From positions 1-33,798 of the forward strand of contig JADFPD010000012.1 of NCBI GenBank assembly GCA_022562475.1: a stretch of 33,798 bases of DNA, in the 5' to 3' direction. Position 1 is the stretch's first letter, and each line of letters starts with the position of its first letter. Below are positions 4,949-33,018 of this stretch, piece after piece. Origin of the DNA: Chloroflexota bacterium. GTDB taxonomy: Bacteria > Chloroflexota > Dehalococcoidia > Lucifugimonadales > UBA3495. Both the position numbers and the translations under genes were made by a program. Under the pieces are notes generated by a model, which saw nothing but the letters and a program-made list of their open reading frames with translations, did not search any database and was not told the origin of the DNA.

Positions 4949-6304
4949 ATGCCTAAACGGATGCTCATGAACGCATTTTCCATGAATTGTGTTTCGCACA
5001 TCCAGCAGGGGTTGTGGGTCCGCGGCGACACCCGCCAGCTCGATTACACCCAGCTAGACCCGTGGGTGGAACTGGCCCAGATCCTAGAGAAGGGCTGTTT
5101 CGATACGCTGTTTCTGGCGGACGTGATCGGGGTCTACGACACCTATCGCGGCGGGCCTGAGACATCGATCACCGAGGGGATGCAGACCCCGGTCAATGAT
5201 CCGGCCATGTTGGTCCCCGCCATGGCCCATGCCACCGAAAACCTTGGCTTTGCCTTCACCAGTTCGGTCCTCCAGATGCATCCCTTCGCGTTCGCCCGGC
5301 AGATGTCGACCCTGGACCATCTGACCCAAGGGCGGGTCGCGTGGAACATCGTGACGTCGTATCTGCCCAACGCCGGCATGAACTTCGGTTTCGGCGGGTT
5401 GCCGTCCCATGACGAACGCTACGACCTGGCCGACGAGTATCTGGAAGTGGTCTACAAGCTGTGGGAGGGTAGTTGGGAGGACGACGCTGTGTTGCGCGAC
5501 ACCAAGCGCGGGATCTACGCCGACCCGGCCAAGGTCCACCCGATCAACCACGTGGGGAAGCACTTCGAGGTAGCCGGACCTCATCTATCCGAGCCGTCGC
5601 CCCAGCGCACGCCCTTGCTCTTTCAGGCGGGCTCTTCCACCCGCGGCAGCAGCTTCGCTGCCAAACATGCCGAATGCGTCTTCATCGTCGACTCGCGGCG
5701 GAGCCTGACCGGCGCGGCCAGCGTCATCGCCGACATCCGGGGCCAAGCCGTCCGAAATGGCCGCCGCCTGGAAGACATCCTATTCTTTCAGGGACTGTCG
5801 CCGGTGGTGGGCGGCACCGAGGCGGAGGCCAAGGCCAAAGAGGCGGAATACTTGGAGCAGTTCAGCACCGAAGGAGCGCTCGCCCACCTGAGCGGCAGCA
5901 TCGGCGTCGACCTGTCCGCCATAGACCTGGATAAGCCACTGGACACCATCGATACCCAATCGATGCGAGGTATGGTGAAGGGGCTGATCGAGTCGAATCC
6001 GGACCAAACGCAAACCTTCCGAGATATCATACGCACCCGCAACGCCGGCCAGTTTCTCACGGGCGCCCCGGAGCAGATCGCCGACCGGTTGCAGGAATGG
6101 CAAGAAGCTGGGGTGGACGGCTTCAACCTCATCTACTCAGTAACCCCCGGCACCTTCACAGACTTCATAGACGCCGTGGTCCCCATCCTCCAACAACGCG
6201 GCCTGATGCAGGCGGAGTACACGCCGGGGCCGTTGCGCCAGAAGATTTTTGGGCAGGCGAGGTTGCCGGGCAGGCATCCAGCGGCGGGGTATCGAAGGGG
6301 GTGA
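4949..6304 (+). CDS. NtaA/SnaA/DszA-type FMN-dependent monooxygenase (LLM class)
   Basis: MNAFSMNCVSHIQQGLWV...FDTLFLADVIGVYDTYRGG...QMSTLDHLTQGRVAWNIVTSY...LLFQAGSSTRGSSFAAKHAECVFI, characteristic of the NtaA/DszA family. Confidence 0.92.
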   Translation: MPKRMLMNAFSMNCVSHIQQGLWVRGDTRQLDYTQLDPWVELAQILEKGCFDTLFLADVIGVYDTYRGGPETSITEGMQTPVNDPAMLVPAMAHATENLGFAFTSSVLQMHPFAFARQMSTLDHLTQGRVAWNIVTSYLPNAGMNFGFGGLPSHDERYDLADEYLEVVYKLWEGSWEDDAVLRDTKRGIYADPAKVHPINHVGKHFEVAGPHLSEPSPQRTPLLFQAGSSTRGSSFAAKHAECVFIVDSRRSLTGAASVIADIRGQAVRNGRRLEDILFFQGLSPVVGGTEAEAKAKEAEYLEQFSTEGALAHLSGSIGVDLSAIDLDKPLDTIDTQSMRGMVKGLIESNPDQTQTFRDIIRTRNAGQFLTGAPEQIADRLQEWQEAGVDGFNLIYSVTPGTFTDFIDAVVPILQQRGLMQAEYTPGPLRQKIFGQARLPGRHPAAGYRRG

Positions 6305-6347
6305 TGGGAACAGGTGGAGGGGCTGACCCTGACCTAGTGTGCTAGGT

Positions 6348-6827
6348 CTAAGCGATGTAAACTTTGACGTTGACCTGCCCTTGGGCGGTATCAACGGTGC
6401 CGATTCCCCATATTTGCAGCGAGTTCACCCAGGCGTAGGCTGGAGAAGATGTGGTCAGCGTGGCATTCTCCCGCAGTTGCAAGACCGGGCTTCCTTCTTC
6501 AGGCGTTGCCACACCATCGGCAAAAAGGGAAATTTTCTGGCGGTCGTTGGTGGTAATTTCAGCGTGAATGTGTAGGTCCACCCGTCCGTCCGCCCGAATA
6601 TTTATGTAGTCGACCCCATTAACCGTGCCCTCAAGTTTTGGACCGGTGAGGGAGCCTTCAAATGCCACGTCGAAACGGGCTCCCTCGTGGGGTGGCGCCG
6701 CTTGGCCCGATAGAATGTCTGCCATGTTTGCACCAAATTCAGTAACGCCGGTAAAGTTTACTTGTATTTGATAGATCAATTCGCCCACGGTAATATTGCT
6801 GGTGGTCATGATAGAAACCTCTCGCAT
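6348..6827 (-). CDS. DUF3237-like protein
   Basis: ARFDVAFEGSLTGPKLEGTVNGVDYINIRADGRVDLHIHAEITTNDRQKISLFADG resembles DUF3237 (UPF0311) family; likely start MTTSNITVG or MREVSIM. Confidence 0.7.
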   Translation of the reverse strand: MREVSIMTTSNITVGELIYQIQVNFTGVTEFGANMADILSGQAAPPHEGARFDVAFEGSLTGPKLEGTVNGVDYINIRADGRVDLHIHAEITTNDRQKISLFADGVATPEEGSPVLQLRENATLTTSSPAYAWVNSLQIWGIGTVDTAQGQVNVKVYIA

Positions 6828-7900: not shown

Positions 7901-10720
7901 ATGGTAACAATTACCCCACACCAATTTGCCATCAAATGGCGGGCGTCAACGCACAAAGAAATTTCTGCCTACGTATCTCATTTTGAAGATTTGTGTCGGC
8001 TAATTGACCATGCCACGCCCACAGATCTCGATTCGACGGGGGGATTTTTCAGTTATCAAAAAGCGAATTTAAAAGAGTCCGGTCAACAGGGTTTCGCTGA
8101 TGTTTGGTATAAAGATCGGTTTGGTTGGGAATATGTTGGAAAAGGAGGGAACCTTCACGAGAAATATCAGCAATTGTTGCAGTATCGAGACAATCTTGCC
8201 AATCCACCTCTACTCGTCGTATGCGATTTTGACACGATAGAAATACATACGAATTTTAATGGGACCATCTCTCGGATCTACCACATTTCGTTGGATCACC
8301 TTTCCGATAGTACTTTGCAGGTTGCTGGCACAGAATTGACCGGCATCCAAGTGATTCGAGCTTGCTTCTACGATCCAGAGTCCCTAAAGCCCGGTCAGTC
8401 CACCGAAGAATTGACCAAAGAGGCAGCAGATCGCTTCGGGGAAATCGCTGAAAGTTTACGAATCTGGAATAACGACGACGAGCAAATCGCTAAGTACCTT
8501 ACCCGTCTTATCTTTTGTATGTTTGCGAGCGATGTTGGACTACTACCGAAGGGCATCATCACCAACATGATCAATGCGAGTCTAGCGATGCCGGTAGGTA
8601 CGCAGGCGTTCGCTGAGAGATTGCGAATGTTATTCGGGGCGATGCAAAAAGGCGGATTGTTTGGCAACGACCAGATTGAATTCTTTGACGGCGGTCTTTT
8701 CAGCGATGATGAGGCTCTACATGTTGACTCCGACAATCTAGGTGCGCTTCGGAGGGCCGATGAACTTAACTGGGCGGACATCGAGCCCTCAGTCTTCGGA
8801 ACTCTCTTCGAACGCATCGTAAACCCCGCTAAACGCTCTCAATTGGGAGCACATTACACATCTCGGTCTGATATTGAAGAAATTGTTGAACCTACTTTGA
8901 TTTGGCCCCTCGCAAATGAATGGCAAATTATTGAAAAGGAGGTGGCGAACCTCTTAGTTCAGAGCGATGGCGTTGATGCACCAACGCCTCCTGATCAGAG
9001 CGAAGCGACGAACAGGATAACGGAGTTTCTCCACAAACTCGGGGCTACGAAAATCTTGGACCCTGCCTGCGGTTCTGGAAATTTCCTTTATGTCAGCCTT
9101 GCAAAGCTCAAGGAGCTTGAACAAAAAGTGGTCTCCTCCGCAGCAAAATGGGGCATATTTGGGCTCGAACCGAAAGTACATCCGCGCCAACTTTTTGGAA
9201 TAGAAATTGACCCTTATGCCCATCAGCTCGCAAGTATTGTAGTTTGGATTGGATACCTGCAGTGGAAATATCAAAATGGAATCTCGTTTTCGGACGAAAT
9301 TCCCATACTTCAGCCTTTAGATAACATCGTACTAATGAACGGCATTCTGGACATCTCCGATCCGGAGAATCCCGTTGAACCGGATTGGCCAGAAGCAGAA
9401 TTCATTGTCGGAAACCCGCCGTTCTTGGGAGGTAAAAAACTCCGGCAAGGCCTGGGAGACGGATATGTGGACTCGCTATTCCGTGTCTGGAAAGGTCGAG
9501 TCCGCCGAGAGGCGGATTTGTGCTGCTATTGGCACGAAAAAGCACGAGCGATGATTGAAGAAGGCCGAGCGCAACGGGCTGGCCTGCTTGCTACCCAAGC
9601 CATCCGAGGTGGTGCGAATCGGGCGACTTTGGATCGCGTCAAATCAACTGGAGATATTTTCTTTGCAATCCCGGATAGGCCATGGGTTTTAGAAGGAGCA
9701 GCCGTTCATGTTTCGATGGTCGGATTTGATAACGGTGCGGAACAGAATCGCGTCCTCGATGGACAGCCCGTAGGAAATATACTGTCGGATCTCTCATCGG
9801 GTGTTGATGTCACGCACGTATCTAGATTAAAGGAAAACCTGGGTGTCGCATTCATGGGAGATACAAAAGGGGGAGCGTTCGATATATCGGAAGCGGTAGC
9901 GCATGAATTGATGCGTATACCTAACCCTCATAATAGAAGTAACACTGAGGTGCTGTGTAGATGGGTCAATGGCTCCGATATAACTGGTCGGCCGCGAGGG
10001 ATGTGGATCGTTGATTTTGGCACGAATATGAGCCTTGAGCAGGCGGCAATGTTTGAAGGCCCATTTAAGTATATTGACGCACACGTCAAGCCTCGTCGGT
10101 TACGCTTGGACGACGATGGGCAATTCGTGGTTAAGCGAGAGACATACAGAGAATCGTGGTGGCTTCATATGGAGCCTCGACCCACAATGCGCGATGCCCT
10201 ATCGCCACTGAAACGTTTTATTGTCACGCCATGTTTAAGCAAACACCGGTTGTTCTCTTGGCTTGAAGTTGGTACCTTGCCCGACCATGCTTTAATTGTC
10301 TTTGCCCGCGACGATGATTATACCTTTGGATTGCTACATTCGAAGGCCCACGAAATTTGGGCGCTAAAAATGGGTACTCAATTGGAAAGCCGTCCCCGTT
10401 ATACGCCCACTACAACATTCGAAACATTTCCTTTCCCGCAACCTTCCGAATTACAAATTACAGCAATTTCCAAGGCTTCCGAGCAGTTGAATGCCCATCG
10501 GGAATCTTGGCTTAACCCGCCAAAGGACGATATTCTAGAAATTGACCTTGCTGCTCGCACCCTGACGTCCCTGTACAACGAGAGACCCACATGGTTGCAC
10601 CTCGCCCATCAGAAATTGGATGAGGCTGTTTTTAGCGCTTATGGATGGTCGGACAAAATCACCGATGAGGAGATTCTAGGGAGACTGCTGAAATTGAACG
10701 AATCGCGCGACCCGGTTTAG
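7901..10720 (+). CDS. MmeI-like Type IIL restriction-modification fusion (N6-adenine DNA methyltransferase with N-terminal PD-(D/E)XK-type region)
   Basis: N-terminal GFADVWYKDRFGWEYVGKGGNLHEKYQQLLQYRDNLANPPLLVVCDFDTIEIHTNF; FGTLFERIVNPAKRSQLGAHYTSRSDIEEIVEP; SAM motif ILDPACGSGNFLYVSL; motif IV FIVGNPPFLGGKKLRQGLGDGYV; TRD-like C-terminal half; AT-richer than flanks. Confidence 0.9.
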   Translation: MVTITPHQFAIKWRASTHKEISAYVSHFEDLCRLIDHATPTDLDSTGGFFSYQKANLKESGQQGFADVWYKDRFGWEYVGKGGNLHEKYQQLLQYRDNLANPPLLVVCDFDTIEIHTNFNGTISRIYHISLDHLSDSTLQVAGTELTGIQVIRACFYDPESLKPGQSTEELTKEAADRFGEIAESLRIWNNDDEQIAKYLTRLIFCMFASDVGLLPKGIITNMINASLAMPVGTQAFAERLRMLFGAMQKGGLFGNDQIEFFDGGLFSDDEALHVDSDNLGALRRADELNWADIEPSVFGTLFERIVNPAKRSQLGAHYTSRSDIEEIVEPTLIWPLANEWQIIEKEVANLLVQSDGVDAPTPPDQSEATNRITEFLHKLGATKILDPACGSGNFLYVSLAKLKELEQKVVSSAAKWGIFGLEPKVHPRQLFGIEIDPYAHQLASIVVWIGYLQWKYQNGISFSDEIPILQPLDNIVLMNGILDISDPENPVEPDWPEAEFIVGNPPFLGGKKLRQGLGDGYVDSLFRVWKGRVRREADLCCYWHEKARAMIEEGRAQRAGLLATQAIRGGANRATLDRVKSTGDIFFAIPDRPWVLEGAAVHVSMVGFDNGAEQNRVLDGQPVGNILSDLSSGVDVTHVSRLKENLGVAFMGDTKGGAFDISEAVAHELMRIPNPHNRSNTEVLCRWVNGSDITGRPRGMWIVDFGTNMSLEQAAMFEGPFKYIDAHVKPRRLRLDDDGQFVVKRETYRESWWLHMEPRPTMRDALSPLKRFIVTPCLSKHRLFSWLEVGTLPDHALIVFARDDDYTFGLLHSKAHEIWALKMGTQLESRPRYTPTTTFETFPFPQPSELQITAISKASEQLNAHRESWLNPPKDDILEIDLAARTLTSLYNERPTWLHLAHQKLDEAVFSAYGWSDKITDEEILGRLLKLNESRDPV

Positions 10721-30204: not shown

Positions 30205-30364
30205 CAAAATCGAACTTACTCTAACGCGGACCGGCGTTGGTGGCAAGTGTAGGGAAAAGACACGATTACCCCTTTGACTATCGAAGTCGACTGCAATATG
30301 CTTCGGGAATCCTTACCATCTCAGAATGAGATTATTACCTTTAAAAACGTAGAGGATTTCTATA

Positions 30365-31141
30365 TTGGGACATGAAAGAATCGGTGTCCTTCCCCAGACG
30401 AAAGCTTGGCGTGATGTCATCGATGGAATTTCATCGGCGATCAACCTAGAAATCGGGACGCAGGAATTGGCATGGGCTACTTTAGAAAACGTCCGAAATC
30501 AATTCCGAAGAATTCACGAGGATCCCGGAGTGGCGGCCGCTTTTAAATTTCTTTTGGAGCTTTCTAGGTCATCGTTGCCTAATCCATCGGTTCGGGGTGC
30601 GGACACACCTGAGATTGAACTGGCATCGAATCCGTCGATTTTACGCATCGTGATATCGCTCCGGGCTTGGGTTGACGAACACCGGGTTTCAACGGAATAT
30701 GCCGACCTCGCCAAAAAGGCAGCAGCTGACGTAATAACTGCGTGGTCTAACCAACAATCTCAACAACCGTCGCTGTTCAGTGGGGCTATAGACTCTCAAG
30801 AAATTTGGAGACGCGCTGCCAACGGATCGGGTTTCTGCGAGGTATCCAGGTTATTCTTTGCCAGGTTCACAGAGCGCTATTTAAACTATTTCTTAGACCG
30901 GGCTGCCTCAGCCGTCTTGCCTAGTGCGTCAGAACGAGACCAATTTGCAGCGAAGGTACATGAACACCTTGATGACATATCAAAGTACGCTTTCGAAACA
31001 TCTAGAATCACTCAATCATTTGCTGCAGGATGGTTCAACCTTTATGCCTTGGAGCGAGCGCCTTCAAACCAAGAGCTGACATCGTTTCTCTCGATAGCTT
31101 TCGGAAAGATTCGCGATGAGCTATCTCGGGAGGCACGCTGA
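30365..31141 (+). CDS. Partner protein of QueC/QatC-like enzyme (QatB-like by position; unknown function)
   Basis: TTG start giving MGHERIGVLPQTKAWRDVIDGISSAIN...; in-frame stop TAG at 30350; AGAGG at 30351-30355; stop codon 2 nt before next ATG. Confidence 0.7.
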   Translation: MGHERIGVLPQTKAWRDVIDGISSAINLEIGTQELAWATLENVRNQFRRIHEDPGVAAAFKFLLELSRSSLPNPSVRGADTPEIELASNPSILRIVISLRAWVDEHRVSTEYADLAKKAAADVITAWSNQQSQQPSLFSGAIDSQEIWRRAANGSGFCEVSRLFFARFTERYLNYFLDRAASAVLPSASERDQFAAKVHEHLDDISKYAFETSRITQSFAAGWFNLYALERAPSNQELTSFLSIAFGKIRDELSREAR

Positions 31142-31143
31142 TC

Positions 31144-33018
31144 ATGATTGTCAGCCCTCCGGTGTATGTATTTTGCAATGGAGCCAACATAAACGAGATC
31201 ACAGAGGATGCATCTCTGGAAAAAACCCTGATTTTGAATTATGAACATGGTAAAGGCTCTGATCAAAATATCCACCTTGAATTGCCGGATTTTGTGAGAT
31301 CTGTTTACAACTTACCGGATAGAATCTTAGATTTGCTCGAGATTGCTGCTTTCGTATTTTGTGCCGACCGACTAAATATTAGAGGTTCAAAAGACGCCGT
31401 GGAGTTCCACAGTTGGTCAAGGACATTTGAATTTGTGATAAAAGTCCGTGACATCACTTTCTGGGAGCAATCTGAAGTCAAACAAGCTCTTTCTGCCGCA
31501 CTTGAGTTCATGACGGGTGATCGGGAATTCCGGTTTACGTTTTTACCCGGCCATTCAACGCCGATCACTAGCTTGTTCGATAACAAACAATTTCGAATTG
31601 AGGACGGTAATAATATATCCGTGGCTTTGTTTTCGGGGGGGCTCGATTCTCTTACAGGCGTAGTCCAACTATTGGAAAAAACTGACGATTCAATCTGCTT
31701 GGTAAGCCATCAATCTCAGACAGGAACAACAAGAACACAACGTCAATTGGTAGAGGCATTGGCCCGGAAATATTCAGGAAGAGTATCGCATTACAAATTT
31801 AAATGCACTCTCCGAGGCAAACGAGCCAACGAGGAGACGCAACGGACGAGATCGTTTTTATATATGAGCATAGCGTTTGCGATTGGGCATGCTTTTTCCA
31901 GAGACGAGTTTTATGTATTTGAAAATGGAATTACAGGTATGAATTTTGGGAGGAGGGAAGATTTATCGAATGCGCGGGCAAGCAGGACTGTACATCCACA
32001 GACCCTCCACCACCTCCGCAAGCTTTTTGAATTGATAACTGGAAATCAAATGGTTATCCACACGCCATTTTTGTGGTCGACGAAAACAGAGGTCTTTCAA
32101 ATGCTCCTCGCAAGTGACAATTCGGATTTAATCTCGAGCTCAGTTTCGTGCAGCAAGACATTCGCCAATTTAGGCCAAGCATCACATTGTGGTGGATGTT
32201 CTCAATGCATAGATCGGCGGATAGCCGCATATGCAGCGAAAGCTGATGATCTTGATGATGCTGGAATCTATCATCGGAATATAATCGTTGAACCAATAAC
32301 AGAAGCAGAAGTTAAGACAACCGCGATCGATTATATAAGGCAAGCAAAAGATTTTGGAGATTGGAATTTCGATCATTTCTGTTCACAGATGATTAGCGAA
32401 TTATCAGAACTTGTGGATTACCTACCGAATGTTAGCGACGAATTTGAAGCGATTGAACGGGTTTGGGATCTCTGTCGGCGCCACGGCCAGCAGGTGTTTT
32501 TAGGCATGCATCGAATGAGGGCTATCCATGACGACCTCTCGAAGAGCCTCGAAAGCGATTCTTTGCTCCAACTTATTTCCGTGCGCGAGTATTTACGAAA
32601 TCCAGTGGAAAGGTTGATGACAGCAATACGGGATATTGTTTCTACCGGGGTCCCACGTATGTTCAGAGATTATCCACCTAAAAACGAGGCGGATTTAAAT
32701 AGCAAGATTAACGCACTGTTGGATACCCACTCAATGGACCTAAGAAGTGAGCACCCGGCACCATCATTTGCGTGTGCCAGTGTGGTGCCAGATCACTCCT
32801 TTGAAGACCGCGATCTTCTGATTGAATCAAAATACATACGCACGGGAACGTCACCAAGCAAGGCATCTGAAGGTATTGCAGCCGATATTACTAAATACCC
32901 AAAAGACTCCCATATTCTTTTCCTTGTATACGATCCTTTACGCGCAATCAAAGATGACGAGACTTTTTGTAGTGACTTCGAGTCGACCGGCAGATGCACA
33001 ATCTGCATTATTAGATAA
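31144..33018 (+). CDS. QueC/QatC-like PP-loop ATPase with C-terminal PD-(D/E)XK-like domain
   Basis: PP-loop VALFSGGLDSLTGVVQLL; Zn motif SCSKTFANLGQASHCGGCSQCIDRRIAAYAA; C-terminal PDHSFEDRDLLIESKYIRTGTSPSKASEGIAADITKYPKDSHILFLVYDP. Confidence 0.8.
   Translation: MIVSPPVYVFCNGANINEITEDASLEKTLILNYEHGKGSDQNIHLELPDFVRSVYNLPDRILDLLEIAAFVFCADRLNIRGSKDAVEFHSWSRTFEFVIKVRDITFWEQSEVKQALSAALEFMTGDREFRFTFLPGHSTPITSLFDNKQFRIEDGNNISVALFSGGLDSLTGVVQLLEKTDDSICLVSHQSQTGTTRTQRQLVEALARKYSGRVSHYKFKCTLRGKRANEETQRTRSFLYMSIAFAIGHAFSRDEFYVFENGITGMNFGRREDLSNARASRTVHPQTLHHLRKLFELITGNQMVIHTPFLWSTKTEVFQMLLASDNSDLISSSVSCSKTFANLGQASHCGGCSQCIDRRIAAYAAKADDLDDAGIYHRNIIVEPITEAEVKTTAIDYIRQAKDFGDWNFDHFCSQMISELSELVDYLPNVSDEFEAIERVWDLCRRHGQQVFLGMHRMRAIHDDLSKSLESDSLLQLISVREYLRNPVERLMTAIRDIVSTGVPRMFRDYPPKNEADLNSKINALLDTHSMDLRSEHPAPSFACASVVPDHSFEDRDLLIESKYIRTGTSPSKASEGIAADITKYPKDSHILFLVYDPLRAIKDDETFCSDFESTGRCTICIIR

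Follow-up and report, generated by a model that had tools for sequence, protein, structure and literature searches.

The window analysed here, a 33,798-nucleotide stretch of a Chloroflexota contig, carries on its forward strand two adjacent genes, B (30365..31141), which encodes a 258-residue acceptor-like protein, and C (31144..33018), which encodes a 624-residue fusion of a QatC-class ATP-pyrophosphatase and a C-terminal nuclease domain. The pair is flanked on both sides by metabolic genes and has a GC content of 43-50%, compared with 57-65% upstream and a value that climbs again downstream; because of this lower GC content relative to the metabolic genes around it, the pair looks acquired.

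The start of B was placed by the initial annotation at the TTG at 30365, and the features on which that choice relied are all found in the sequence. The in-frame stop upstream is a TAG (30350-30352), separated from the TTG by four codons only (RISI), a Shine-Dalgarno-like AGAGG lies at 30351-30355 on the forward strand, nine bases 5' of the TTG, the next in-frame ATG, GTG or TTG occurs more than 30 codons downstream, and the frame from 30365-30367 reads L(M)-G-H-E-R-I-G-V-L-P and continues to a stop at 31141. The AGAGG is a possible ribosome-binding site which, taken on its own, adds little to the argument for the TTG start. Homologous starts align at exactly this position; among the 48 examined there are 46 ATG codons, one GTG (L009) and the single TTG of the window, and in intact members of the family the upstream stop is mostly within a few tens of codons, with a common start point that is ATG in nearly all. 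The Gly 2 codon of B is GGA (30368-30370, forward strand).

The B protein consists of an N-terminal tail (residues 1-15, M-G-H-E-R-I-G-V-L-P-Q-T-K-A-W; 30365..30409, forward strand) and an all-helical domain, as delineated by the open reading frame, its homologues and AlphaFold2. The AlphaFold2 model (mean pLDDT 86, pTM 0.86; one row, from a plasmid record, was left out of the run) contains ten helices, and residues 1-7 have pLDDT values below 50, such that the tail is predicted to be disordered on a ten-helix body. No relatives of B were found in Pfam, NCBIfam or the PDB, and no PADLOC-DB model matches it. Homology with QatB was considered and rejected, as neither phmmer nor hmmsearch gave a significant match among PDB chains, hhalign comparisons with QatB sets of 8 and 12 proteins gave 16.7% and 5.7%, and no significant Foldseek match was obtained, though the QatB-QatC entries 9y01 and 9y02 were in the library. 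Nothing significant was retrieved from the viral structures of BFVD, a CD-NTase assignment found no Pfam or PADLOC CD-NTase match, and a match to a type I specificity protein (E 0.038) was taken as noise.

The neighbouring gene had been described as QueC-like, which stands at the level of the QueC superfamily (Pfam QueC, PF06508, E 1.7e-9) but not beyond it, the protein being of the class of QatC, itself cluster 2 of the QueC family, and neither QueC proper nor Cap9-like. C is matched by the QatC model of PADLOC (1.2e-46) and by that of NCBIfam (NF041925; 9.6e-55, 186.1 bits, below the equivalog cut-off of 280), and aligns with one QatC by hhalign at 99.9% over residues 56-446. A Foldseek search with its AlphaFold2 model retrieves QatC (9y01_B, E 2.5e-15, TM 0.73 on the target, extensions included), followed by QueC and Cap9 (Cap9-CdnD 9nto_B, E 1.7e-4). 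The Rossmann ATP-pyrophosphatase core and the zinc site are shared with canonical QueC (PF06508), in comparison with which C is a 624-residue protein with extensions; furthermore, a canonical queC is present elsewhere in the host genome (G000:C12:3497-4183).

In a joint alignment of 27 proteins of the new family and 8 QatC proteins, the invariant positions are the catalytic D63, D(x)4R, WxR, SGGxDS, RxR, ENG, RT-HP, TK, Y376 and four zinc-binding cysteines. The ATP pyrophosphate loop, SGGLDS, occupies residues 164-169 (31633..31650, forward strand), with Ser 164, Gly 165, Gly 166, Asp 168 and Ser 169 unchanged throughout the new family and the eight QatC proteins, and the zinc site is formed by Cys 336, Cys 349, Cys 352 and Cys 355 (32149..32208, forward strand), all invariant in the 35 sequences. 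A QatC-type loop surrounds ARASRTVHP (31960..31998, forward strand), where Ser 280 and Thr 282 align with QatC Thr 278 and Thr 280 and replace the nucleobase-reading Tyr/Asp pair; in L035 and L037 the replacement is Thr/Thr. The R80-W91 spacing and the spacing of the first two cysteines are unlike those of QatC, and a phylogenetic tree separates the C family from QatC, both sides being supported at 100/100. Judged from its fold and active-site residues, C is a QatC-class enzyme; it belongs to a separate clade.

The C-terminal part of C (about residues 511-617; 32674..32995, forward strand) is a predicted DpnII/MboI-type PD-(D/E)xK nuclease domain (PF18742, E 4.7e-12, 46.1 bits versus a cut-off of 27) with the catalytic residues Asp 550 and E561-x-K563; Asp 550, Glu 561 and Lys 563 are invariant in 19 proteins. 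Most relatives of C carry the nuclease domain at this end, whereas in L019 and L034 a TIR domain takes its place (Pfam 4e-15 and 1e-16; ThsB-like in PADLOC). The C-terminus of L031 contains a region common to a PADLOC candidate family, and no recognised domain was found in the C-terminal regions of L016, L033, L035, L037 and L040 or of the distant members, where these regions are short, so that the fused effector is not universal. Mapped onto the C tree, the nuclease label changes at least four times, on well-supported branches. That nuclease and TIR domains alternate on the same core suggests that the core is a sensor or trigger to which different killing domains can be attached. The short-Argonaute systems SPARTA and SPARDA (TIR-APAZ and nuclease-APAZ) offer an analogy, and no more than that, in that their recognition core, too, is found with either a nuclease or a TIR as the killing domain; unlike these, the B-C module has no Argonaute or APAZ. 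In L085, L087, L088, L094 and L095 the C-termini are short or unrecognised, and the effector may be encoded apart from C; by eye, two of these C-termini (L094 and L095) resemble winged helices, with no database match.

The presence of QueC-like and restriction-nuclease domains in one protein would also be expected of a restriction-type system, in which a deazaguanine made by the QueC-like half would serve to modify DNA, leaving unmodified DNA open to cleavage by the fused nuclease. We regard this as very improbable, given that the enzyme is QatC-class, that B is a conserved helical protein, that the interval bounded by the flanking metabolic genes contains no transglycosylase gene, and that the nuclease is swapped for TIR, which modifies no DNA.

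A pattern scan of 84,980 species genomes recovered 33 loci, from more than ten phyla, together with one viral contig, and the B-C pair is also found on a Leptospira plasmid. With few exceptions the C gene lies directly 3' of B, most often overlapping it by 4 bases, and the loci departing from this adjacency either are cut by a contig end or hold a broken copy (L025, L032, L038, L039, L041 and L042). A phage origin of the pair was rejected, since the Leptospira B protein is unmatched in 50,697 phage records and only one viral contig was recovered. In that contig (L042, IMGVR_UViG_3300012973_000028), the C gene stops after about 250 residues (9532-9586) at a break point that resembles a tRNA 3' end (GGTTCGACTCC...CCA), which would fit the integration of an element, and a tRNA cluster lies at 6051-6735.

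The flanks of the relatives contain type I, IIG and III restriction-modification, DISARM, BREX, Hma and MADS genes, a tally of the module's own neighbourhoods that is supporting only. By tblastn, neither qatA nor qatD was found in the window or in the loci searched, with flanks of up to 8 kb, whereas five control qat loci were matched. On the indirect grounds of its homology to QatC and of these defence-gene neighbours, we consider that the B-C pair is probably an anti-virus defence system.

The initial annotation had proposed that B is an N-terminal-glycine acceptor, and had looked to the homologues for invariance of the glycine and of the segment that follows it. Glycine is present at residue 2 in 47 of 47 aligned full-length homologues, which come from many phyla, and only Met 1, Gly 2 and Trp 223 are invariant in the entire alignment. 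Elsewhere in the tail, His 3 and Pro 10 are each conserved in 46 of the 47 sequences and Trp 15 in 45; within a 34-sequence set the invariant columns are Met 1, Gly 2, His 3, Arg 5, Pro 10, Trp 15 and Trp 223, six of the seven falling in residues 1-15. Mean column entropy is 0.92 bits in residues 1-15 versus 2.11 bits in the rest of the protein. Invariance does not, however, extend to the whole GHERxGxLP segment, the distant members reading MGHNLLSRVP, MGDKIVGTLP or MGHKHLYGLP; the other tail residues drift while Gly 2 stays.

One of the scan patterns spanned the B N-terminus, and a degenerate pattern of this kind might itself create conservation, for which reason Gly 2 was re-examined in 17 sequences that do not match the N-terminal pattern. 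All 17, found by the C-terminal pattern only, have the glycine, and a whole-protein B profile run against about 1,170 genomes added 13 full-length and more distant members, such that 30 of the 47 sequences were found without the N-terminal pattern. Furthermore, the Gly 2 codons among the B genes comprise 23 GGA, 11 GGC, 9 GGG and 5 GGT, and this use of all four GGN codons indicates that the amino acid is conserved rather than the DNA. Broken or truncated B genes were also encountered (L041 8001-8165, L006 1501-1638, L073 and L075), with the MGH start kept in L041 and L006; such copies suggest frequent loss.

Bacterial proteins commonly have a small residue at position 2, and the Met-Gly start could in principle be incidental, with Gly 2 kept for the start region or for N-terminal processing only. 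This we find hardly credible: Ala, Ser, Thr and Pro, which would be equally good for Met removal, never occur in the 47 sequences, the tail is otherwise conserved too, and at position 2 of neighbouring ORFs in the same loci glycine is outside the eight commonest residues. No conserved N-terminal extension occurs in any homologue, and with the invariant glycine and the predicted disorder of the tail the proposal that B is a glycine acceptor for the neighbouring enzyme is well supported.

The closest comparison is with the qatABCD system (PDB 9y01, 9y02, 9zee and 9vll), in which the N-terminal glycine of QatB is essential, its tail has been modelled into the QatC active site, and defence is lost with QatB G2D, with QatB lacking residues 16-22 and with mutations in the QatC active site (PMC13279940). 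C shares with QatC the fold with its N- and C-terminal extensions, the SGGxDS motif and the zinc site; in place of Tyr/Asp, C has Ser/Thr and QatC Thr/Thr, a correspondence that is conservative rather than identical. QatB has the layout of a disordered tail on a helical body (PMC13279940); B likewise is encoded just upstream of the enzyme, is helical and begins Met-Gly, on a tail predicted to be disordered that includes Pro and Trp. The B-C module differs in having neither qatA (KAP NTPase) nor qatD (TatD), B has no detectable QatB homology and continues after Met-Gly with His (46 of 47) where QatB reads MGTS or MGTT, and the C family is fused to a nuclease or TIR domain and forms its own clade.

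From the homology of the enzyme and the invariance of Gly 2, B is best read as an acceptor whose state controls the fused effector. The reading that we favour, and think reasonably probable, is that B-C is a two-gene Qat-like modify-and-trigger defence module that carries its own fused effector. B would lose its initiator Met, exposing a flexible Gly-His tail, which the QatC-class domain of C, with ATP, would hold in its active site, and C would then attach, by acylation, a small activated carboxylate to the amine of the glycine. The modification, or the presence of the tail in the active site, would determine what state the complex is in, and disturbance by phage would release the action of the fused effector, the nuclease acting on phage or cell DNA and TIR on NAD. 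In chemistry, Gly-His(n) tags, with several His per tag, favour acylation at the amine of their glycine (PMC6098153), and by analogy the single His 3 beside the glycine of B could be a built-in base for acylation.

An invariant tail glycine would, however, be equally expected if the B tail merely docks or inhibits. The tail could be a docking or auto-inhibitory peptide whose Gly 2, placed in a QatC-like site, senses ATP or a phage-altered metabolite and is never covalently modified. Such a role would account equally well for the conserved Pro 10 and Trp 15 and for the disorder of the tail, and qatABCD was characterised with no QatC-catalysed product found and the activity of QatC not reconstituted (PMC13279940). 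Against this, the ATP pyrophosphatase and zinc sites of C are complete and invariant, as would be the case for an enzyme, and the homologous Cap9 reaction does conjugate an N-terminal glycine; we therefore hold docking without modification to be somewhat unlikely, and retain acylation of B as the preferred reading.

The work on type IV CBASS to which the initial annotation referred exists: Cap9 couples the N-terminal glycine of its partner protein to a 7-deazaguanine carboxylate (PMC11996544). The resemblance lies in a QueC-superfamily enzyme encoded with a Met-Gly partner (Cap9/CdnD, PDB 9nto), whereas B is no CD-NTase, no Cap10 lies between the flanking genes, and Cap9 retains the Tyr/Asp nucleobase pair that C does not. 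The annotation's extension of the same deazaguanine chemistry to this locus is not supported. That Gly 2 receives exactly the CBASS modification, 7-amido-7-deazaguanine derived from CDG, appears unlikely, the kinship of the enzyme superfamily and the kind of acceptor notwithstanding. The window's own genome contains queE, queC and queD together on contig C12 (G000:C12:2753-4613), and CDG should consequently be available there; by the same token, a canonical queuosine precursor pathway exists separately from the module. However, the Tyr/Asp reader pair is Ser/Thr in C, just as Thr 278 and Thr 280 stand in QatC where the CDG-reading Tyr/Asp would be (PMC13279940), and QueD was undetected in 4 of the 25 module-bearing genomes examined (G201, G301, G304 and G315), one of which, G301, a single-record chromosome of 3.18 Mb, holds the closest relative, L009. 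Some of these absences could reflect incomplete assembly or an unusual QueD. Together, the missing Tyr/Asp pair and the undetected QueD in some hosts argue against assuming 7-deazaguanine. The tRNA-guanine transglycosylase gene of the Bipolaricaulota genome G304 (G304:C16:3662-4867) contains one in-frame TGA.

The B-C module is neither a qatABCD system nor CBASS, and a further departure from both is possible, if rather less probable than the Qat-like module described above: a separate family of glycine modification, in which the acceptor is unrelated to QatB or CD-NTases, a group other than 7-deazaguanine is placed on Gly-His, and the conjugate is the switch of interchangeable nuclease or TIR effectors. 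Such a family would suggest that bacterial immunity makes general use of QueC-family protein modification as a trigger module. If the favoured reading of B-C holds, N-terminal-glycine modification by QueC-family enzymes would extend beyond CBASS and Qat. For qatABCD, the action of QatC on QatB and the route by which phage is stopped are posed as a question in PMC13279940, and the B-C pair makes that question testable, as enzyme, acceptor and effector can be inactivated singly and the output would be DNA damage or NAD loss. No paper on a nuclease- or TIR-fused QatC was found in the literature searched, a body that leaves many subscription journals outside it.

In the course of the comparison with classical Qat loci, the RefSeq qatB genes of five plasmid records (L044, L053, L054, L059 and L061) were observed to have starts apparently annotated late, which cuts off the tail, so that the MGTS motif is missing from the database protein; in L044, homology begins 5' of the annotated start. 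In L059 (Bradyrhizobium ottawaense, NZ_CP150124.1 51846-53975), the gene annotated as qatC, from position 1459 onward, has about 709 codons versus the usual 450, and classical Qat may thus also have fused forms.
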